Shown piece after piece: positions 6,125-63,254 of a stretch of 64,000 nucleotides of DNA. The stretch covers positions 248,001 to 312,000 of the forward strand of contig NZ_SBIT01000002.1 in NCBI RefSeq assembly GCF_004765785.1, written 5' to 3'. The DNA is from Halorussus ruber. Lineage in GTDB: Archaea; Halobacteriota; Halobacteria; Halobacteriales; Haladaptataceae. A model generated the notes under the pieces. That model was not told the origin of the DNA and ran no database searches. It worked only from the letters and a program-made list of their open reading frames with translations. Position 1 is the stretch's first letter. Each line of letters begins with the position of its first letter. Made by a program: the position numbers and the translations under genes.

Positions 6125-6452
6125 GCGTGTCAATGTTGTGCATTGAGGATAGTAAACCCCCGTGTTTCGGTGAACGAAACTCCGGCGTGTTGGCCCGAGG
6201 CGGAATACGAGCGTAGAGAAATATAATCATACGCTTACCATAACTAATTATGTCTTATAGAAACAATTATATTTGTGAAAAATCGGCCGCGTCCAACGAG
6301 CGCGCCCGGCCTCACAGCAGTACAGCGCGGAAGCTCACTCCTTTAGGGTGGGAGGAAGCGCGTAAACTCTATGGCACAGACCACCGATACTAGCAGGGAC
6401 GACTCCCGAAATAATCGTTGACTATATAAACAAAGTTCCTAAAAAGTCTCAC
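6125..6452. other. Gene-free region containing the left end of the IS1341-type element
   Basis: The first half is AT-rich (6215-6290), with several TATA-like and AACAATT runs and no ORF. At 6334-6354 an imperfect hairpin (CTCACTCC ... GGTGGGAG, two mismatches) sits in a GGAAGCTCAC...GGAGGAAGC context, similar in style to the subterminal structures of IS200/IS605 left ends. A TATA-like TATATAAAC lies at about 6422-6430, 25 nt before the tnpB start. No tnpA is present. Confidence 0.45.
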
Positions 6453-12906: not shown

Positions 12907-13073
12907 ACGGGCCGAACGGAGCAATGCTAATCCCTAATTAATATAAATAATTATTGAAGAAATAGTATCGATTCCTTAGTAAGCAATTACGGAGTTCGAA
13001 ACGTTTCCCTTTTCGTTCGACGCCCGACACGATAAGGCAAGGGTTTACGTAGGGGAGCGCAAAAGGCGCGACT

Positions 13074-16069: not shown

Positions 16070-19227
<3,158 letters not shown>

Positions 19228-20671: not shown

Positions 20672-21246
20672 TACCACGAGACTCGATAGATGCACTCGTC
20701 GCCGCCGTCGTCGCGGCAGGTCTCGCTCTCCTCTTCGACCTCGACGATCGCGCTATCGGGGCTGAACTTCTCGGCGACGGCCGTGATGAGGCCCACGTCG
20801 AGGTCACAGGGATACGGGTTCTTACAATAGACGAGACGCTCGTTGGGACCGGTCTCCTCGAACTCGTAGTAGCCGATTTCGCCGCCGCGGTGGTTCATCT
20901 GATACGCTTCCTCGATGGATTGGAGGCCCTTACCGACCGTGTCGATTCCGGGCGGCCACTCGGCGTTTTCCGGAATTTTCTTGCCGATATTCCGCAAGGT
21001 CTGGGGCCCAATCGTGTCGGCGACCGACTTGAACGAGTCGAGATACGCCTGCTGGGGATACCACTCGCCGGGCTGTGGCTCGCCGATACCCTTCTCGTCG
21101 AGCGTCTCTTGCATCCGTTTCTCGAAGACGCTAGAAAGTTCACCGACGCCCGCTAACATCGAGCGAACTGCCTGCCCATCGACTTCGACACCATCGTCGA
21201 ACGCTTCGAACTGCGTCATGTCAACATCTCCCTTTCCAGCCGACAT
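20671..21246 (-). CDS. Putative V4R/heme-NO-binding-like sensor protein
   Basis: 191 residues, soluble. The C-terminal half ([36 protein letters not shown] ... [15 protein letters not shown]) ends with a Cys-x(3)-GGD-x-C-x-Y-x-V-x-W pattern seen in small-molecule sensory domains of the V4R/HNOB type. The N-terminal half ([21 protein letters not shown] ... [24 protein letters not shown]) is helical, as in proteins that present such a domain. Two TATA-like A/T stretches lie 15-30 nt before ATG 21246 (leaderless). It is first in an operon with the HemAT-like transducer, so it may feed ligand information to it. The exact family is uncertain. Confidence 0.55.
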
Positions 21247-21370
21247 ATATCTTTCCTACATTTAAATAAAAATAATAATATGGTAAAGGGGACGAATGCG
21301 CCCCGTTCGTATAAAATTCGCTTTGTTTTAGTATGTCATAAAAAGCTTTAAATAATCGGTTAACTCCGGT

Positions 21371-23000: not shown

Positions 23001-23369
23001 ATGGCTCCAGAGCCGAGTACCGCCGAGGAGGTGTCGGAGACGCCGGACGGGATTCGAGAGTTGAAACTCGGCATCCTTCGAGAGTGGCTCAAAGTCGTCT
23101 ACGTCATTTCGACGTTCATCTCGCTAAACGTCATTCCGGGTCTTCTCTTCGCCACGGTCGTCGTTCTCGAAACAGTCGTGACGAACGTACCAAATCTAAC
23201 GCTACAACCATTAGCGATTCACGCGACGAGTAGCGAAGGAGTACCGGTGACAAAGCTTATAAAAAGTTTCGTCGTATTAGATGTCATACGTAATCTACTC
23301 AAACTCTACTGGAAAGGACAGCCGAATATCCAACTGAAACCCGACATTCCGGAGGCAAACGATGACTAA
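23001..23369 (+). CDS. Hypothetical membrane protein (122 aa), first of a coupled pair
   Basis: After a charged N-terminus a hydrophobic helix appears at about residues 33-58 (VVYVISTFISLNVIPGLLFATVVV), then a polar stretch, an amphipathic segment (VTKLIKSFVVLDVIRNLLKLYW) and an acidic tail. It overlaps the next gene by 8 nt (ATGACTAA), so the two are likely translationally coupled. Slightly lower GC than neighbours. No family recognised. Confidence 0.6.
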   Translation: MAPEPSTAEEVSETPDGIRELKLGILREWLKVVYVISTFISLNVIPGLLFATVVVLETVVTNVPNLTLQPLAIHATSSEGVPVTKLIKSFVVLDVIRNLLKLYWKGQPNIQLKPDIPEANDD

Positions 23370-23844
23370 ACACGACGTTTACTGGCCCGAGATGGGTATC
23401 GAGAACGACGAGGACACAGCCGGGTCAGAGGCCGTGAAAGAGTGGACTGAACACCCCACGCTCCGGAAAGTCCTGCTGACCATCTATCTCGGGACCGAAA
23501 TCATCCGAATCGCCGCGTTCGGTGCAATCGCGGGTGCGGTACTGGTCGGTGCGGTTCACCTCGGAATCGACTTCGATTCGAATACCGCGATACTCTGGGG
23601 ATTCATGGCGGCGGTGGCCTTCGTGATGGGCATAGACGAACTCTCGAAGAAAGTGGTGGACTACAGCATCCAGTACGGCGCATTTCTGGTGGCGACAGTC
23701 GTCGTGGTTTCGCTCCTCCAGTTGTATCTTGACCTCAAGGAGCGCCGGAACTCGATAGACGACCCCTCCGCGCTCGCGTCGTCGCTCCCCATCGAGAGCA
23801 TTCCGCTCCTCGAACTCTACGAGCGGCGTAATCGACTGATGTGA
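23362..23844 (+). CDS. Hypothetical membrane protein (160 aa), second of a coupled pair
   Basis: Three hydrophobic helices are visible (IAAFGAIAGAVLVGAVHLGI; ILWGFMAAVAFVMGI; FLVATVVVVSLLQLYLDL), flanked by an acidic N-terminus and a Leu-rich polar C-tail. Starts inside the last codons of the 122-aa membrane protein gene; probably both act together at the membrane. The downstream inverted-repeat element may terminate or cap the transcript. No known family. Confidence 0.6.
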   Translation: MTKHDVYWPEMGIENDEDTAGSEAVKEWTEHPTLRKVLLTIYLGTEIIRIAAFGAIAGAVLVGAVHLGIDFDSNTAILWGFMAAVAFVMGIDELSKKVVDYSIQYGAFLVATVVVVSLLQLYLDLKERRNSIDDPSALASSLPIESIPLLELYERRNRLM

Positions 23845-23867
23845 CTCAGTCCTCGTCGTGATTTTTT

Positions 23868-23942
23868 ACCACTTAGACAACTATAGATGTGTTAAAGGCA
23901 ATTTTTTAGTTTCTTATCACACATCTATAATTGTCTAGTGGT
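23868..23942. repeat. 75-bp structured element: long inverted repeat with 26-nt loop
   Basis: Arm 1 (23868-23892) and arm 2 (23919-23942) are inverted copies of about 24-25 nt with one indel and one substitution; the cores TAGATGTGT and ACACATCTA match perfectly. The 26-nt loop contains a T-run. A second perfect hairpin (CTTCTCG TGA CGAGAAG, 23954-23970) follows. The region is AT-rich and lies between two convergent-free genes on the same strand. It could be a MITE-like relic, a transcript terminator or a structured RNA. Confidence 0.7.
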
Positions 23943-24028
23943 GACTCTCGGTACTTCTCGTGACGAGAAGCGGAAGTCCCCACTACAGACGCCGACTTTT
24001 TTCAAATCCCCCTTCGAAGCCGACACTC

Positions 24029-24202
24029 GTGCCCTCTGACGGCGCCTCCGACCTCGGTGCGAAACTCGACCGCATCAGCTACCTGCTGGTCGCGGTCGTG
24101 GTGCTTCAAATCGTGGAAATACTCGACCTCGACCCGACCGGTCTCGCGTTTCTCGCCGTGGTCGGGTTCTTCATCGGCATGCTCTACAACGCCGACCTGT
24201 AG
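24029..24202 (+). CDS. Small membrane protein (57 aa), related to two others nearby
   Basis: GTG 24029 opens a 57-residue frame: acidic head (SDGASDLGAKLDRISYLL) then two adjoining hydrophobic helices (LVAVVVLQIVEIL, GLAFLAVVGFFIGMLY). The LDRxxYLLVAxVVxQ block recurs in the small membrane proteins at 26705-26902 (as LDRIVLLLAALLAVEL) and 26903-27109 (LDRLTYLLVALVVFQL). Longer upstream frame contains the hairpin region and is not used. Function unknown; the related trio surrounds an MFS transporter and an S66 peptidase homologue. Confidence 0.5.
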   Translation: MPSDGASDLGAKLDRISYLLVAVVVLQIVEILDLDPTGLAFLAVVGFFIGMLYNADL

Positions 24203-24232: not shown

Positions 24233-25456
24233 TCACCCGCTGAACACGCTCACACCCTCCGGATTGATTCGAAGGAAGGCCGGAATCGAGACCAGCGCGA
24301 TGGCGATTTCCAGCGCGCCCGCCGTCAGGAACGCCGCGAGGAAGCCGACCTCGTCGGCGACCGTCCCGCCGACGAGGACGCCAGCCAGAAAGCCCAGACT
24401 CCCGCAGGCGTTGAACCCGGCCATCGCGGTCCCGCGACCAGCGTCGGAGGCGAGGTCCGAGACCAGCGCCATCGTGGCCGGGGCCATCAGCGCGCCGATG
24501 ACGCCCACGACCACCATCCCGACCGCGGCGGTCGGAACCGTGGGCGAGACGCCGACGCCAACCACGGCGAAGCCGTAGAGCGCCGACCCGGCGACGATTG
24601 GGGCGGTCCGGCCGATGCGGTCCGAGAGGACGCCGAAGGGGTACTGAAGGAGCGCGAAGGGTCCGAAGAACAGACCCAGCATCAGGCCGGTCGCGGCGGC
24701 GTCGAGGTCGAACGCCTGCCGGAAGTAGACCGTGCCGACCAGCGCGAAGAATCCCGCGGTGAACCGGTCCACGAACCCGAAGACGTAGGGCAGGCCCAGC
24801 ACCGGGCGCTCGGCGAGCACGGCGAACGCGCGGCGGACTCGGCCCTCTCGACCTCCCTGTTCGCCATCCCGTCCGTCGCCCGAGGAGGGCGCGCGGTCGG
24901 GTATCGACACCGCCAGCGCCCCGGCGACGACCAGCAGGCCGCCCGCGGCGTAGAGCGGGACCAGTCCGCCGAATCCGTAGAGTCGCCCGCCGAGCGGTGC
25001 GCCGATGGCGGTCCCGAGGCCGATGGCGATGCCCGCCGCGCCCATGTTCTTGCCGTGGCCGCCCTCCAGGTCCATCAGCATCGTCATCGCCAGCGAGAAC
25101 GCCCCGATGGTGGTCGCGCCCTGCACCGCCCGGAGCGCCAGCACCCCGCCGAACGACAGCGAGAGCGCGCCGGGCGCGATTGCCAGCGCGAAATAGCCCA
25201 GCGCACCGCCGAACGCTCCAAGCACCACGAGCGGGGTCCGGTATCCGAGGCGGTCGCTGACCGCGCCCCAGACCCCGGCGAAGGCGACGAACGCGGCGAA
25301 CTCGGCGGCGAGGAACCACATGCTGGCGTCGAGCGTCGTGGTCGCGCCGACCGCGGCCACGAGGTCCGGCACGCCGGGATACAGGAGGACCTGCGCGAGG
25401 AGGACCGCGAACACGACGACCGCGAGTCGGAGTCGGTCGCATCGAATAGAGGTCAC
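24233..25456 (-). CDS. Major facilitator superfamily (MFS) transporter
   Basis: 407 residues with twelve predicted helices in two bundles. Typical MFS motifs: WGAVSDRLGYRTPLV between helices 2 and 3 (motif A, GxxSDRxGxR/K) and GVLSDRIGRTAPIV in the second half. A charged cytoplasmic loop (EQGGREGRVRRAF...) lies between the halves. The start is GTG 25456 (no ATG is available near the first helix). Resembles drug/metabolite:H+ antiporters; substrate unknown. Divergent from nothing close; convergent with the 57-aa membrane protein gene. Confidence 0.88.
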   Translation of the reverse strand: MTSIRCDRLRLAVVVFAVLLAQVLLYPGVPDLVAAVGATTTLDASMWFLAAEFAAFVAFAGVWGAVSDRLGYRTPLVVLGAFGGALGYFALAIAPGALSLSFGGVLALRAVQGATTIGAFSLAMTMLMDLEGGHGKNMGAAGIAIGLGTAIGAPLGGRLYGFGGLVPLYAAGGLLVVAGALAVSIPDRAPSSGDGRDGEQGGREGRVRRAFAVLAERPVLGLPYVFGFVDRFTAGFFALVGTVYFRQAFDLDAAATGLMLGLFFGPFALLQYPFGVLSDRIGRTAPIVAGSALYGFAVVGVGVSPTVPTAAVGMVVVGVIGALMAPATMALVSDLASDAGRGTAMAGFNACGSLGFLAGVLVGGTVADEVGFLAAFLTAGALEIAIALVSIPAFLRINPEGVSVFSG

Positions 25457-26902: not shown

Positions 26903-27109
26903 ATGACCGACCCGGACGATTTCGCAGACGAAATCGACCGTCTCGGCGACAAACTCGACCGCCTCACCTACCTGCTGGTGGCGCTGGTCGTCTTCCAACT
27001 GTTCGACCTCTTCGGCGGTGCGCTCGCTCAGTTCGCCGTCATCGCGGTCCTCGCGCTCGCCGCCGTCTCGGTCGTTGTCCTCCTACTCGGACTCGCCGAC
27101 GCGTTCTGA
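26903..27109 (+). CDS. Small membrane protein (68 aa)
   Basis: Starts at the base following the preceding gene's stop. Acidic head (DDFADEIDRLGDKLDRLTYLL) then two helices (VALVVFQLFDLF and AVIAVLALAAVSVVVLLLGLA). Residues LGDKLDRLTYLLVALVVFQLFDLF match LGAKLDRISYLLVAVVVLQIVEIL of the 57-aa protein at 24029 closely. The 3' end overlaps the convergent glycosidase gene by 27 nt. Confidence 0.6.
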   Translation: MTDPDDFADEIDRLGDKLDRLTYLLVALVVFQLFDLFGGALAQFAVIAVLALAAVSVVVLLLGLADAF

Positions 27110-31075: not shown

Positions 31076-31355
31076 AGCCGGTTTTGTTATCAGTAGTTTT
31101 ATAAGACGTTGCGGCTCTCGGCGGTCGCGTTCTCCCGACGGAACGTTCGTGGCGAATCGGCGGCCCACTCTAATAGCAAATAAATCATTTGTTTAGTAAA
31201 TATTTAGTTAGTCTAAAGACATATATACTGTTTCTACTGTCCTCTCGCTCCTGTCGATGGTTCCAACCATCTCTCTCCGGCGTTGAATCCGACGACCCGC
31301 GCCCGTAATCTGTCCCAGAGTTTGATGGCCCGCCGCGCCGTTTCCGTGATAGAGA

Positions 31356-38130: not shown

Positions 38131-38464
38131 GGGCGAACCGTCGGACGCGAGCGGGAAAAGGATACGTGTCCGGACGCTCGGAGATGAACGTCGGAGTGAA
38201 TCGGTTACGTCGGAGTGAATCGGTTGCCGGAACTCGGAAAACGAGTTCAGAAGGCGGGGTCGAGTGGAGCGACTGCGAGCGGTCGACCACACGAACTGTC
38301 ACAGATCACGGAACGCGATTGCGGTGCTGTGCAGTTTCGTCGGTTCGGACACCAGTAGCCACTAAGAAGCGAACACAAGAGAAACAAACACAATTGTTTA
38401 GTAATTATAAACAATTCCTAAAGACACCTCTAGTCACGTCTAATGACTATCCTAAAAGGAAATC
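38131..38464. other. Gene-free 334-bp region with tandem duplication and AT palindrome
   Basis: No supported gene. At 38188-38206 and 38207-38225 a 19-nt unit (ACGTCGGAGTGAATCGGTT) is duplicated in tandem. At 38392-38416 a palindrome has 9-nt arms (AATTGTTTA / TAAACAATT) around a 7-nt spacer. The rest changes from GC-rich to AT-rich. The palindrome lies between the hsp20 stop and the FAD oxidoreductase start. Confidence 0.7.
38392..38416. promoter_or_regulatory. AT-rich palindrome, possible operator or terminator
   Basis: Arms AATTGTTTA (38392-38400) and TAAACAATT (38408-38416) are perfect reverse complements with GTAATTA between them. It sits about 50 nt beyond the hsp20 stop, on the same strand as the next gene, so it could end the hsp20 transcript or bind a regulator of the downstream gene. 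Similar AACAATT/CTTAG-rich patches occur at 6255, 12950, 31180, 45388, 49000 and 60815. Confidence 0.4.
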
Positions 38465-38974: not shown

Positions 38975-39282
38975 TCTATTTCACCGACTATACATAGGCT
39001 CGCTTAGGTGATAAAGATAGATGGATGCGTGCTATCACGGGGCCGAAATGTAGCGTTTTGGGCGAGAAGCGTGACCAGAGGTTCAGACTGCAGAATCGTA
39101 GTGGTGTTTCCTTCTTGAAGCCCCGCCCTGTCGCGGGTCTCCGCCCGCGACAGGGCGGCCCCTTCATCCACCCACGGCGGCTGGTCAGTCGAGCGCATCC
39201 ACGGTGGATTAGCGTCACCGAGCGCATCCTGTCGGGTGGTCGGCCTGCTATCGCGGACCCGAAATCGCCGTTCGTCGGTCTC
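38975..39282. other. Gene-free 308-bp region with a strong GC hairpin
   Basis: No supported gene. It holds the hsp20 promoter side (ATAGGCTCGCTTAGGTGATAAAG near 38994) and a very strong hairpin at 39123-39158 plus a smaller ATCCAC/GTGGAT stem nearby (about 39198-39210). Short basic ORFs on the minus strand (Arg/Pro-rich) do not look coding. Confidence 0.6.
39123..39158. repeat. Perfect 15-bp GC-rich hairpin
   Basis: CCGCCCTGTCGCGGG (39123-39137) pairs completely with CCCGCGACAGGGCGG (39144-39158) around a 6-nt loop. GAAG- and CTTC-like bases flank it on either side, extending an imperfect stem. Its form resembles the subterminal hairpins of IS200/IS605 right ends, but no transposase fragment is next to it. 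It could instead be the core of a small RNA or a bidirectional terminator. Confidence 0.7.
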
Positions 39283-43131: not shown

Positions 43132-43624
43132 TCGTCGGTGCCTCGTGGCGGGTTCCTTCGTCTTCGTATTTGAACGTTGGTTTCGCCGGGATAGAATTGT
43201 TATTATTTCTTTAGAACTAGTATACAGGTCTTTAAGCTGTGTTTTTAATTGTTGGTTATCTAGCGGACGGCGCGCGCTGGCGCGGCTTCATGCCGCGCCA
43301 TCGTCGCGCGAGGGATGAGGACCGCAGGCCCGTGGCCGAGGACCGCAATCGGTTGGGGGAGGATGTGGCCCGCGGTTGCGGTCTGAGAGGAGTTTGTAGA
43401 GACATCAAGTAGTACATCATCAATTTATACTCTTGAATAAGCGAGCCGCTATCTCTACTCTGCTACTGAAGTTAGTAGCAGAGGAAAAATAAACAAATTA
43501 TGAACCAGCACAATTTTGCTAATTACTTCGCTATTCGCAAAGGCTAAGTGATTACTACAAGAATGTAGTAAATGGGTAAGAGACGAGGCGGCCCGACGTA
43601 AGTCGGATTCTTCGCCTCTGTTTG
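43132..43624. other. Gene-free 490-bp region with two GC hairpins
   Basis: No convincing gene. AT-rich around 43180-43255, then two strong stems: GGCGCGGC...GCCGCGCC (43279-43299) and GACCGCAA...TTGCGGTC (43341-43383, with internal pairs). The stretch GGGTAAGAGACGAGGC occurs at 43574 and again at 43885, flanking the small ORF 43625-43816. Could encode a structured RNA or be residue of a mobile element. Confidence 0.55.
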
Positions 43625-48805: not shown

Positions 48806-48869
48806 TCCGCGGGGGTTTCGCGGATTGTGACAGTCCGCGGAGGTTCCGCGGATTGCGACAGTCCGCGGG
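48806..48869. repeat. 28-bp tandem repeat, 2.3 copies
   Basis: Units at 48806-48833 and 48834-48861, each about TCCGCGG.GGTTTCGCGGATTG.GACAG, differ at three sites; a partial third unit follows (48862-48869). GC-rich stems (CCGCGG) within each unit could pair. It directly follows the IMPACT stop codon. Confidence 0.8.
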
Positions 48870-48997: not shown

Positions 48998-49023
48998 CTA
49001 AGGAATTATATAGTTGTCCTTAG
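48998..49023. terminator. Inverted repeat between convergent genes, candidate terminator
   Basis: CTAAGGA (48998-49004) and TCCTTAG (49017-49023) are perfect reverse complements around a 12-nt AT-rich spacer. It lies between the 3' ends of the IMPACT gene (plus) and the cation exchanger gene (minus), where a shared terminator or regulatory stem would be expected. Confidence 0.4.
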
Positions 49024-49046
49024 AAAATATTCTTCATTCTTTGCGG

Positions 49047-50228: not shown

Positions 50229-50615
50229 GGAGTAGAGACACGGCGGCGAGACACAAATACCCTCGACTGCGCGTAGTCGAGTTCGTTGAATTGTGCTACA
50301 CGCGGTCGAGATTGGGACTGCTCGGATAGATACATCATCAAAATAGGAACGATGGTTTCGAAAGCCCTCGCGCGGTTCGCGGTCACGTGAGCGAAGCGAA
50401 CGTGATCTCGGAAGATGCGGTTTGTCTTCCGGCGCTCGCCCTTTCAGTCCGCCGGAGGACAAACGGCGTCCTCCGAGCCTGCGCTCGCTTCGCTCGCGCA
50501 GACGCCAGGACGTGGTTTGTGTCACCGACCGAAGCGGGTGGTTGGTCATGCTTCTCCGAACACCGCTGTCGGTAGACACGCAAAACATTTCGCCGGGAAA
50601 GCCGAAGTCGGGGCT
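50229..50615. other. Gene-free 387-bp leader with four hairpins and a dispersed repeat
   Basis: No gene. It holds the promoter of the cation-exchanger gene (minus) and the leader of hisI (plus). Four stems follow in series: TCACGT/ACGTGA (50383-50405), GGAAGA/TCTTCC (50410-50430), GGAGGAC/GTCCTCC (50454-50474) and CTGCGC/GCGCAG (50479-50501). A 27-bp sequence at 50358-50384 recurs near 63128. Confidence 0.6.
50358..50384. repeat. 27-bp dispersed repeat, copy 1
   Basis: TCGAAAGCCCTCGCGCGGTT followed by CGCGGTC, identical to 63128-63154 and found in intergenic DNA both times. Its REPREGFR-like reading in another frame is a known haloarchaeal intergenic motif type; function unknown. Confidence 0.8.
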
Positions 50616-54704: not shown

Positions 54705-54869
54705 GGACAGAGATAGAATTTAAATCGTTAAGAATATATTTTTGTTGCTCTAGCACGCAATTGTATTTGTTTCGACAATCGATCGGCTAACCGAAGGAAA
54801 GGAGAGGAACTGCAACGAGAGGGGTGATGAGGAAAATAGCTAAGTGACCCCGAACGGCTAGAGATACCT

Positions 54870-60113: not shown

Positions 60114-60305
60114 ACCTGTTCTGTTCGCCTACGGAGTTAAATTGGGTTCGGTTGTGCAGTTGGGTCTGTAATTGGCGTGGTTCTTGTAACGATTGCTTGG
60201 AGATTCGTATTGTAATTTCCCATAACATATAAATTTATTATTATTTTAGAGACAGCTATGTATTATATCGAAACAGCTTTTTTCTACAATTGTTTCCCAC
60301 GCTAT

Positions 60306-60707: not shown

Positions 60708-60890
60708 TCGAATTTCCATTCCTTATCAGCAGTTATTTTAAGTAGTCTTTACTGCCCTCGAAGACTGAATCTCATAGATTCTTATGCTAGTGCGAGATTT
60801 TGTATAATTAAATAACAATTTTATAGACATATATTTATACTTTCAGAATTAGAAAATTATAAGTTTTGGAGTTTAGTTTTCGCTAATTGC

Positions 60891-63154: not shown

Positions 63155-63254
63155 GCCGAACCCATCTGGCCGTTCAGCCACTAAGCAACCTTTACCCACA
63201 TTTAGAAAACATTATTATATATTAAAGAACCAAATACAGTGCTTAGTCTGTCTC

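Follow-up and report, generated by a model that had tools for sequence, protein, structure and literature searches.

The inverted repeat and its surroundings

The window analysed here, a stretch of 64,000 nucleotides, covers positions 248001-312000 of contig 2 in the draft genome of Halorussus ruber (4.3 Mb, with a GC content of about 64%), whose gene content and kin are those of a haloarchaeon. It includes an intergenic gap that holds an inverted repeat followed by a smaller hairpin. An earlier, sequence-only reading had called this gap AT-rich and, in fact, about 55% of its bases are A or T. The features of the locus are as follows:

23001-23369, + strand: predicted membrane protein of 122 aa, first of the upstream gene pair
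23362-23844, + strand: predicted membrane protein of 160 aa, second of the pair; the array follows its 3′ end, and its stop codon lies 30 nt ahead of array unit 1
23862-23867, + strand: T6 tract just before the array, read from the sequence, 18 nt past the stop codon
23868-23892: left arm of the inverted repeat, made of ACCAC, a bulged T and TAGACAACTATAGATGTGT; the outer ACCAC falls outside the array unit
23893-23918: loop of 26 nt
23919-23942: right arm, ACACATCTATAATTGTCTAGTGGT, including the outer GTGGT
23954-23970: second hairpin with a perfect 7-bp stem, CTTCTCG (23954-23960), loop TGA and CGAGAAG (23964-23970)
24029-24202, + strand: small gene of about 57 aa, downstream and on the same strand; a similar stretch lies beside the MFS gene in congeners (L010 and L016)
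24233-25456, - strand: MFS transporter gene, beyond the small gene

The upstream pair is low in GC over its whole length (23001-23844), and neither of its products has a Pfam match. The small protein encoded at 24029-24202 has a make-up similar to that of another one at 26903-27109 (LGAKLDRISYLLVAVVVLQ and LGDKLDRLTYLLVALVVFQ, respectively). The T6 tract (23862-23867) plausibly serves the upstream operon as an ordinary terminator of the U-tract type, comparable to the intergenic T-stretch terminators of Haloferax (PMC7237163).

The repeat itself, with arms of 24-25 nt and a loop of 26 nt, was found exactly as first described, and the earlier judgement that its length exceeds that of a simple terminator also holds. 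The predicted RNA fold of 23866-23945 reaches -33.7 kcal/mol, against a mean of -11.3 for shuffled sequences (none of 200 shuffles was as good), and z is -8.65 on one strand and -8.56 on the other, so that both strands fold much more stably than their shuffled versions. In an inverted-repeat census of the 64-kb window, 23868-23942 was joint best with a score of 16, while the best score in five dinucleotide-shuffled windows was 12. The window also contains a GC-rich repeat at 50407-50477 (28-nt arms with mismatches, score 16), unrelated to the arrays described below, a perfect 15-bp GC-rich stem with a 6-nt loop at 39123-39158 and an imperfect 23-nt stem with a 3-nt loop at 48819-48867. The second hairpin does exist and its stem is perfect, but it is an ordinary feature, because the window has 87 stems of 7 perfect base pairs that enclose loops of 3-8 nt (1.36 per kb).

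The size of the repeat and its inverted arms had suggested a MITE, and a relic of an insertion sequence would fit them as well. Such an origin is scarcely credible, however, given the searches that bear on it. BLAST searches of the genome itself and of 195 relatives gave no second full-length copy of the 75-bp element, and the exact arm pattern had no match among the genomes of 84,980 species. The sequences at the ends of the stem (ATTTTTT and GACTCTC) form no target-site duplication, no direct repeats occur in the 500-bp region around the repeat, and terminal inverted repeats common to the copies of the unit described below are lacking. Additionally, no transposon with such ends was found; plasmid records gave only a 24-bp chance match, phage records gave none, and the 11 matches of a shorter arm pattern in viral contigs are unrelated.

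A degenerate 21-bp unit

When mismatches were tolerated in the arm search, other sites appeared in the same genome, all of them resembling the palindrome AGACAAYTATAGTTGTCTTAA. With up to three mismatches, this palindrome has 16 matches in the genome, none in the reversed control and at most two in any congener. The neighbourhoods of these sites contain further units about 21 nt away. The unit is a degenerate palindrome, AGAAA-n8-TTTCT, joined by a TWA linker (consensus AGAAATATATATATTTCTTAA). Thus, the hunch that the repeat belongs to a dispersed family holds for the degenerate 21-bp unit, which is recurrent, but not for the 75-bp element, which is single-copy.

Read with this unit, the inverted repeat consists of three head-to-tail units that span 23875-23937, and the second of them holds most of the loop:

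23875-23895: array unit 1, AGACAACTATAGATGTGTTAA; PWM score 20.1, the highest in the gap and reached by 0 of 1000 gap shuffles
23896-23916: array unit 2, AGGCAATTTTTTAGTTTCTTA; PWM score 12.5 at exactly +21
23917-23937: array unit 3, TCACACATCTATAATTGTCTA; PWM score 9.3 at the in-phase position (+42), rising to 13.0 two bases further along

The inverted repeat thus belongs to a dispersed family of intergenic arrays, each with two or three near-palindromic units of 21 bp.

Copy number and spacing of the arrays

To describe the family, expectation-maximisation (EM) was trained on intergenic DNA taken from 464 kb of the genome. The resulting motif was AGAAATATATATATTTCTTAA, of which there are about 100 sites, while shuffled sequences have 15. 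The distance to a second unit is 21 bp (range 19-23) and that to a third unit 42 bp, with nothing past 44 bp; chains of two units (36) and three units (31) predominate, and longer ones are seldom seen. In 82 kb of intergenic DNA there are 70 two-unit arrays, against 1.9 in shuffles, while 53 kb of intergenic DNA from the congener G004 contains only one. Raw autocorrelation of intergenic DNA also has a prominent lag of 21, although lags that are multiples of 3 also arise from coding DNA that was missed.

As the matrix was trained on one contig, 319 kb from other contigs served as a held-out test, the spacing being left untrained. At a strict threshold, 17 pairs of units at 21 bp were obtained there, and none in the reversed sequence. 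At a lax threshold there were 40 against 17, so this control is not wholly clean. When EM was run independently on each genome, a further unit at 21 bp accompanied 52% of the units in the training contig and 58% in the held-out ones, with a base level of 1-3%. In the held-out contigs, as in G002, a second peak lies at 42 bp. Altogether, 109 arrays were counted in about 783 kb of sampled DNA, which extrapolates to a family of roughly 600 per genome. Thirteen of them lie in the window and, besides the one at the inverted repeat, these are:

6238-6279: two units with 21-bp spacing, score 31.3
12937-12978: score 25.7
18222-18264: 22-bp spacing, score 20.8; the orthologous gap in G004 has no array
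21245-21286: score 19.3
31175-31216: score 26.0, with a third unit following
38380-38421: score 29.7, with a third unit following
43193-43234: score 35.4
49002-49043: score 28.8; the orthologous gap in G004 has no array
54711-54752: score 26.6
60229-60270: score 25.3
60804-60845: score 32.4
63205-63246: score 25.8

Position relative to genes, and DNA versus RNA

Genes were called with our own codon-usage caller, and these calls are rough. Units are densest between convergent genes (1.84 per kb of intergenic DNA), followed by co-directional (1.31) and divergent ones (1.06). In convergent and co-directional gaps, the median distance from array to stop codon is 42 nt, while 78 nt are expected (p about 0.0025); in the held-out contigs it is 28 nt against 53 (p 0.03). 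The same tendency is seen in G002 (p 0.06) and in G014 (p 0.03, with only 5 arrays).

Both this 3′-end bias and the high density between convergent genes are what would be observed if the arrays were bidirectional terminators, in which TTTCT/AGAAA provides a U-tract for each direction and repetition tightens termination. Intergenic termination sites with a T-stretch and a TC dinucleotide have been described in Haloferax (PMC7237163). We nevertheless consider this explanation unlikely. Between co-directional genes the sense strand has no excess of T, as T and A are nearly equal in the arrays in two counts (550/509 and 170/152), and many arrays are located between divergent genes. Moreover, U-tracts do not need an exact 21-bp spacing, the congener G004 does without arrays, and at the inverted-repeat locus a T6 tract is already present ahead of the array.

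A different possibility is that the inverted repeat acts as RNA, either as a small RNA, which the sequence-only reading had considered, or as a hairpin that stabilises the 3′ end of the transcript of the 122/160-aa operon. The stem is very stable and starts 24 nt past the stop codon, as such a hairpin might. To see whether the stem accompanies the operon, homologues of the 160-aa protein were sought. Among congeners, a close one was found in G012 alone, and the gap behind the same gene pair there has a weak array (p 0.011) but no comparable stem. Two further homologues are remote and also lack the stem, and another genome collection contained none. The close homologue in G012 sits between aminotransferase and MFS genes. 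Neither does the repeat match any Rfam family, nor is the stem present in any other array, and none of the 8 dyad base pairs is formed above the independent-column expectation in 226 units, although this covariation test leans to independence, since the units were selected by an additive score. A functional RNA hairpin is, for these reasons, very improbable. The lack of both covariation and strand bias would instead be consistent with recognition at the DNA level by a putative symmetric protein, and with neither a selected RNA hairpin nor a one-way U-tract.

Distribution and turnover among relatives

Only some species of a single genus have the arrays, as judged, within the genus, from 20-400 kb sampled in each genome. 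With its own EM, G002 has another unit at 21 bp for 67% of its units and G014, more weakly, for 29%, while G004 has 4%; the base level is again 1-3%. In G012 the independent EM missed the spacing in 49 kb, too small a sample, and scoring with the G000 matrix gave 7 against 1 at 21 bp. No spacing peak was observed in G021, from another genus of the same family, or in G143, from another family, and in G251, from another genus, no 21-bp peak rises above the neighbouring spacings. A lax two-unit pattern was also searched in 392 genomes of the order, and only G000 (59 against 30 in the reversed control) and G012 (31 against 16) were clearly above the control, although this pattern is too lax to settle the distribution.

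Orthologous gaps were also compared. G012 has arrays in two of them, one being the inverted-repeat locus (scores 14.6-16.9), and the sequences of these arrays barely align with their orthologues; when the gaps of G000 and G012 are aligned directly, p is 0.09, which is not significant alone. In G004, one of 12 orthologous gaps has an array-like stretch. The array at C2 10218 (L092) is missing in G014, where the gap is shorter, although the genes on either side share about 85% identity. Such presence and absence at orthologous gaps indicate that arrays are gained and lost quickly between species.

This turnover could also be expected from selfish short interspersed repeats, similar to REP/BIME or to the small mobile repeats of Haloquadratum, that insert behind genes because they are least harmful there and have no host function. 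Their high copy number, intergenic location and restriction to some species favour this explanation, as do the presence/absence at L092 10218 and a density that decreases from convergent to tandem and divergent gaps, as in REPs (PMC3733652). By contrast, the copies of the unit have almost nothing in common outside the key positions of the dyad (0, 2, 4, 7-10 and their symmetric mates), as expected for a binding site and not for copies of a master element. Additionally, the arrays have no GTAG/CGTC tag, and those other than the inverted repeat have no long stem. Six Y1 (IS200-type) transposase genes look intact; five were inspected, and four of these have no array within 1.5 kb (the remaining one has an array at 0.9 kb). 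On balance, we regard purely selfish repeats as a rather unlikely explanation.

Origin of the long stem

The array at 23868-23942 differs from the rest of its family in its stem. Its stem score is 16, while the next best among 70 arrays is 10 and 700 simulated arrays reach 12 at most. The departures of unit 1 from the consensus (TGTGT/ACACA) recur in unit 3 as their reverse complement, and the identity between both units extends beyond the unit itself into ACCAC/GTGGT. Template switching is known to perfect quasi-palindromes (PMC7202029; PMC8604942; PMC8794818). We infer that such perfection best explains the long stem. In a secondary event, a template switch at replication would have perfected the existing quasi-palindrome of unit 1 against unit 3, and would have copied the odd bases of unit 1, together with the flanking ACCAC, to the opposite side. 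A striking lone hairpin can, thus, arise as the side effect of a weaker pattern that spans the genome.

Proposed role of the arrays

Dyad units at a fixed helical phase, as in a protein-binding DNA array, are what was found here. Each unit may be the DNA site of a putative dimeric DNA-binding protein. As 21 bp correspond to two helical turns (2 × 10.5), successive dimers would lie on the same face of the helix, which would allow cooperative binding. The resulting filament, mostly behind genes, might act as an insulator, as a roadblock that aids the end of transcription, or in the organisation of the nucleoid. A pure gene-end role is opposed by the arrays that are also found between divergent genes (1.06 per kb, against 1.84 between convergent ones, with rough gene calls). 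We give about an even chance to the proposal that the arrays are phased binding sites for a putative dimeric protein, mostly near gene ends, and that the stem of this copy is the product of a template switch.

A broader proposal, which we put forward tentatively and hold to be somewhat less probable than even, is that hundreds of lineage-specific phased palindromic arrays near gene ends might let a putative archaeal protein insulate transcription units or organise the nucleoid, being gained and lost within the genus while the surrounding genes stay put. The genomes of halophilic archaea are compact, and research on their chromatin and on the points at which transcription ends is still in progress. 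A large and readily recognised set of phased sites, present in some species of a genus and absent in others, provides natural plus/minus genomes for testing insulation, termination and nucleoid roles.

Comparison with known systems

The arrays share several characteristics with REP/BIME elements, which are also short palindromic intergenic repeats, present in hundreds of copies and in clusters of few units. Both are commoner between convergent or co-directional genes than between divergent ones, as REPs favour convergent and unidirectional gaps (PMC3733652). However, REP/BIME are tagged with GTAG or CGTC, while the arrays described here are untagged (AGAAATATATATATTTCTTAA), AT-rich and archaeal, are phased head-to-tail at 21 bp with weak sequence identity and no covariation, and have no link to Y1 transposases.

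The SMR and PATE elements of Haloquadratum walsbyi are likewise short, dispersed, transposase-free haloarchaeal elements, of about 50-110 bp and with inverted or palindromic parts. SMRs exist as near-identical copies of about 80-110 bp with prominent terminal inverted repeats (PMC3119063), whereas our arrays are highly divergent, measure 42-65 bp and have no terminal inverted repeats. SMRs also target other mobile elements and PATEs resemble IS605 ends, neither of which was seen for the arrays. Near two arrays (L070, about 1680, and L063, about 1600) there are GAAGCCCCCGC motifs, which may resemble the ends of haloarchaeal IS605-type elements.

The T-stretch terminators of Haloferax volcanii also lie behind genes and are comparable to the T-rich half-sites, but the arrays have no strand bias, keep a fixed 21-bp period and are limited to some species of one genus. 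Finally, arrays of operators or nucleoid-protein sites with two-turn spacing are a general class, with which our arrays share dyad units two helical turns apart; they differ in that there are hundreds of them, mainly near gene ends, and in that the binder is putative. No description of such arrays was found in the library of open-access papers searched and, from their sequence features, they look like an undescribed family of putative DNA-protein docking sites near gene ends.
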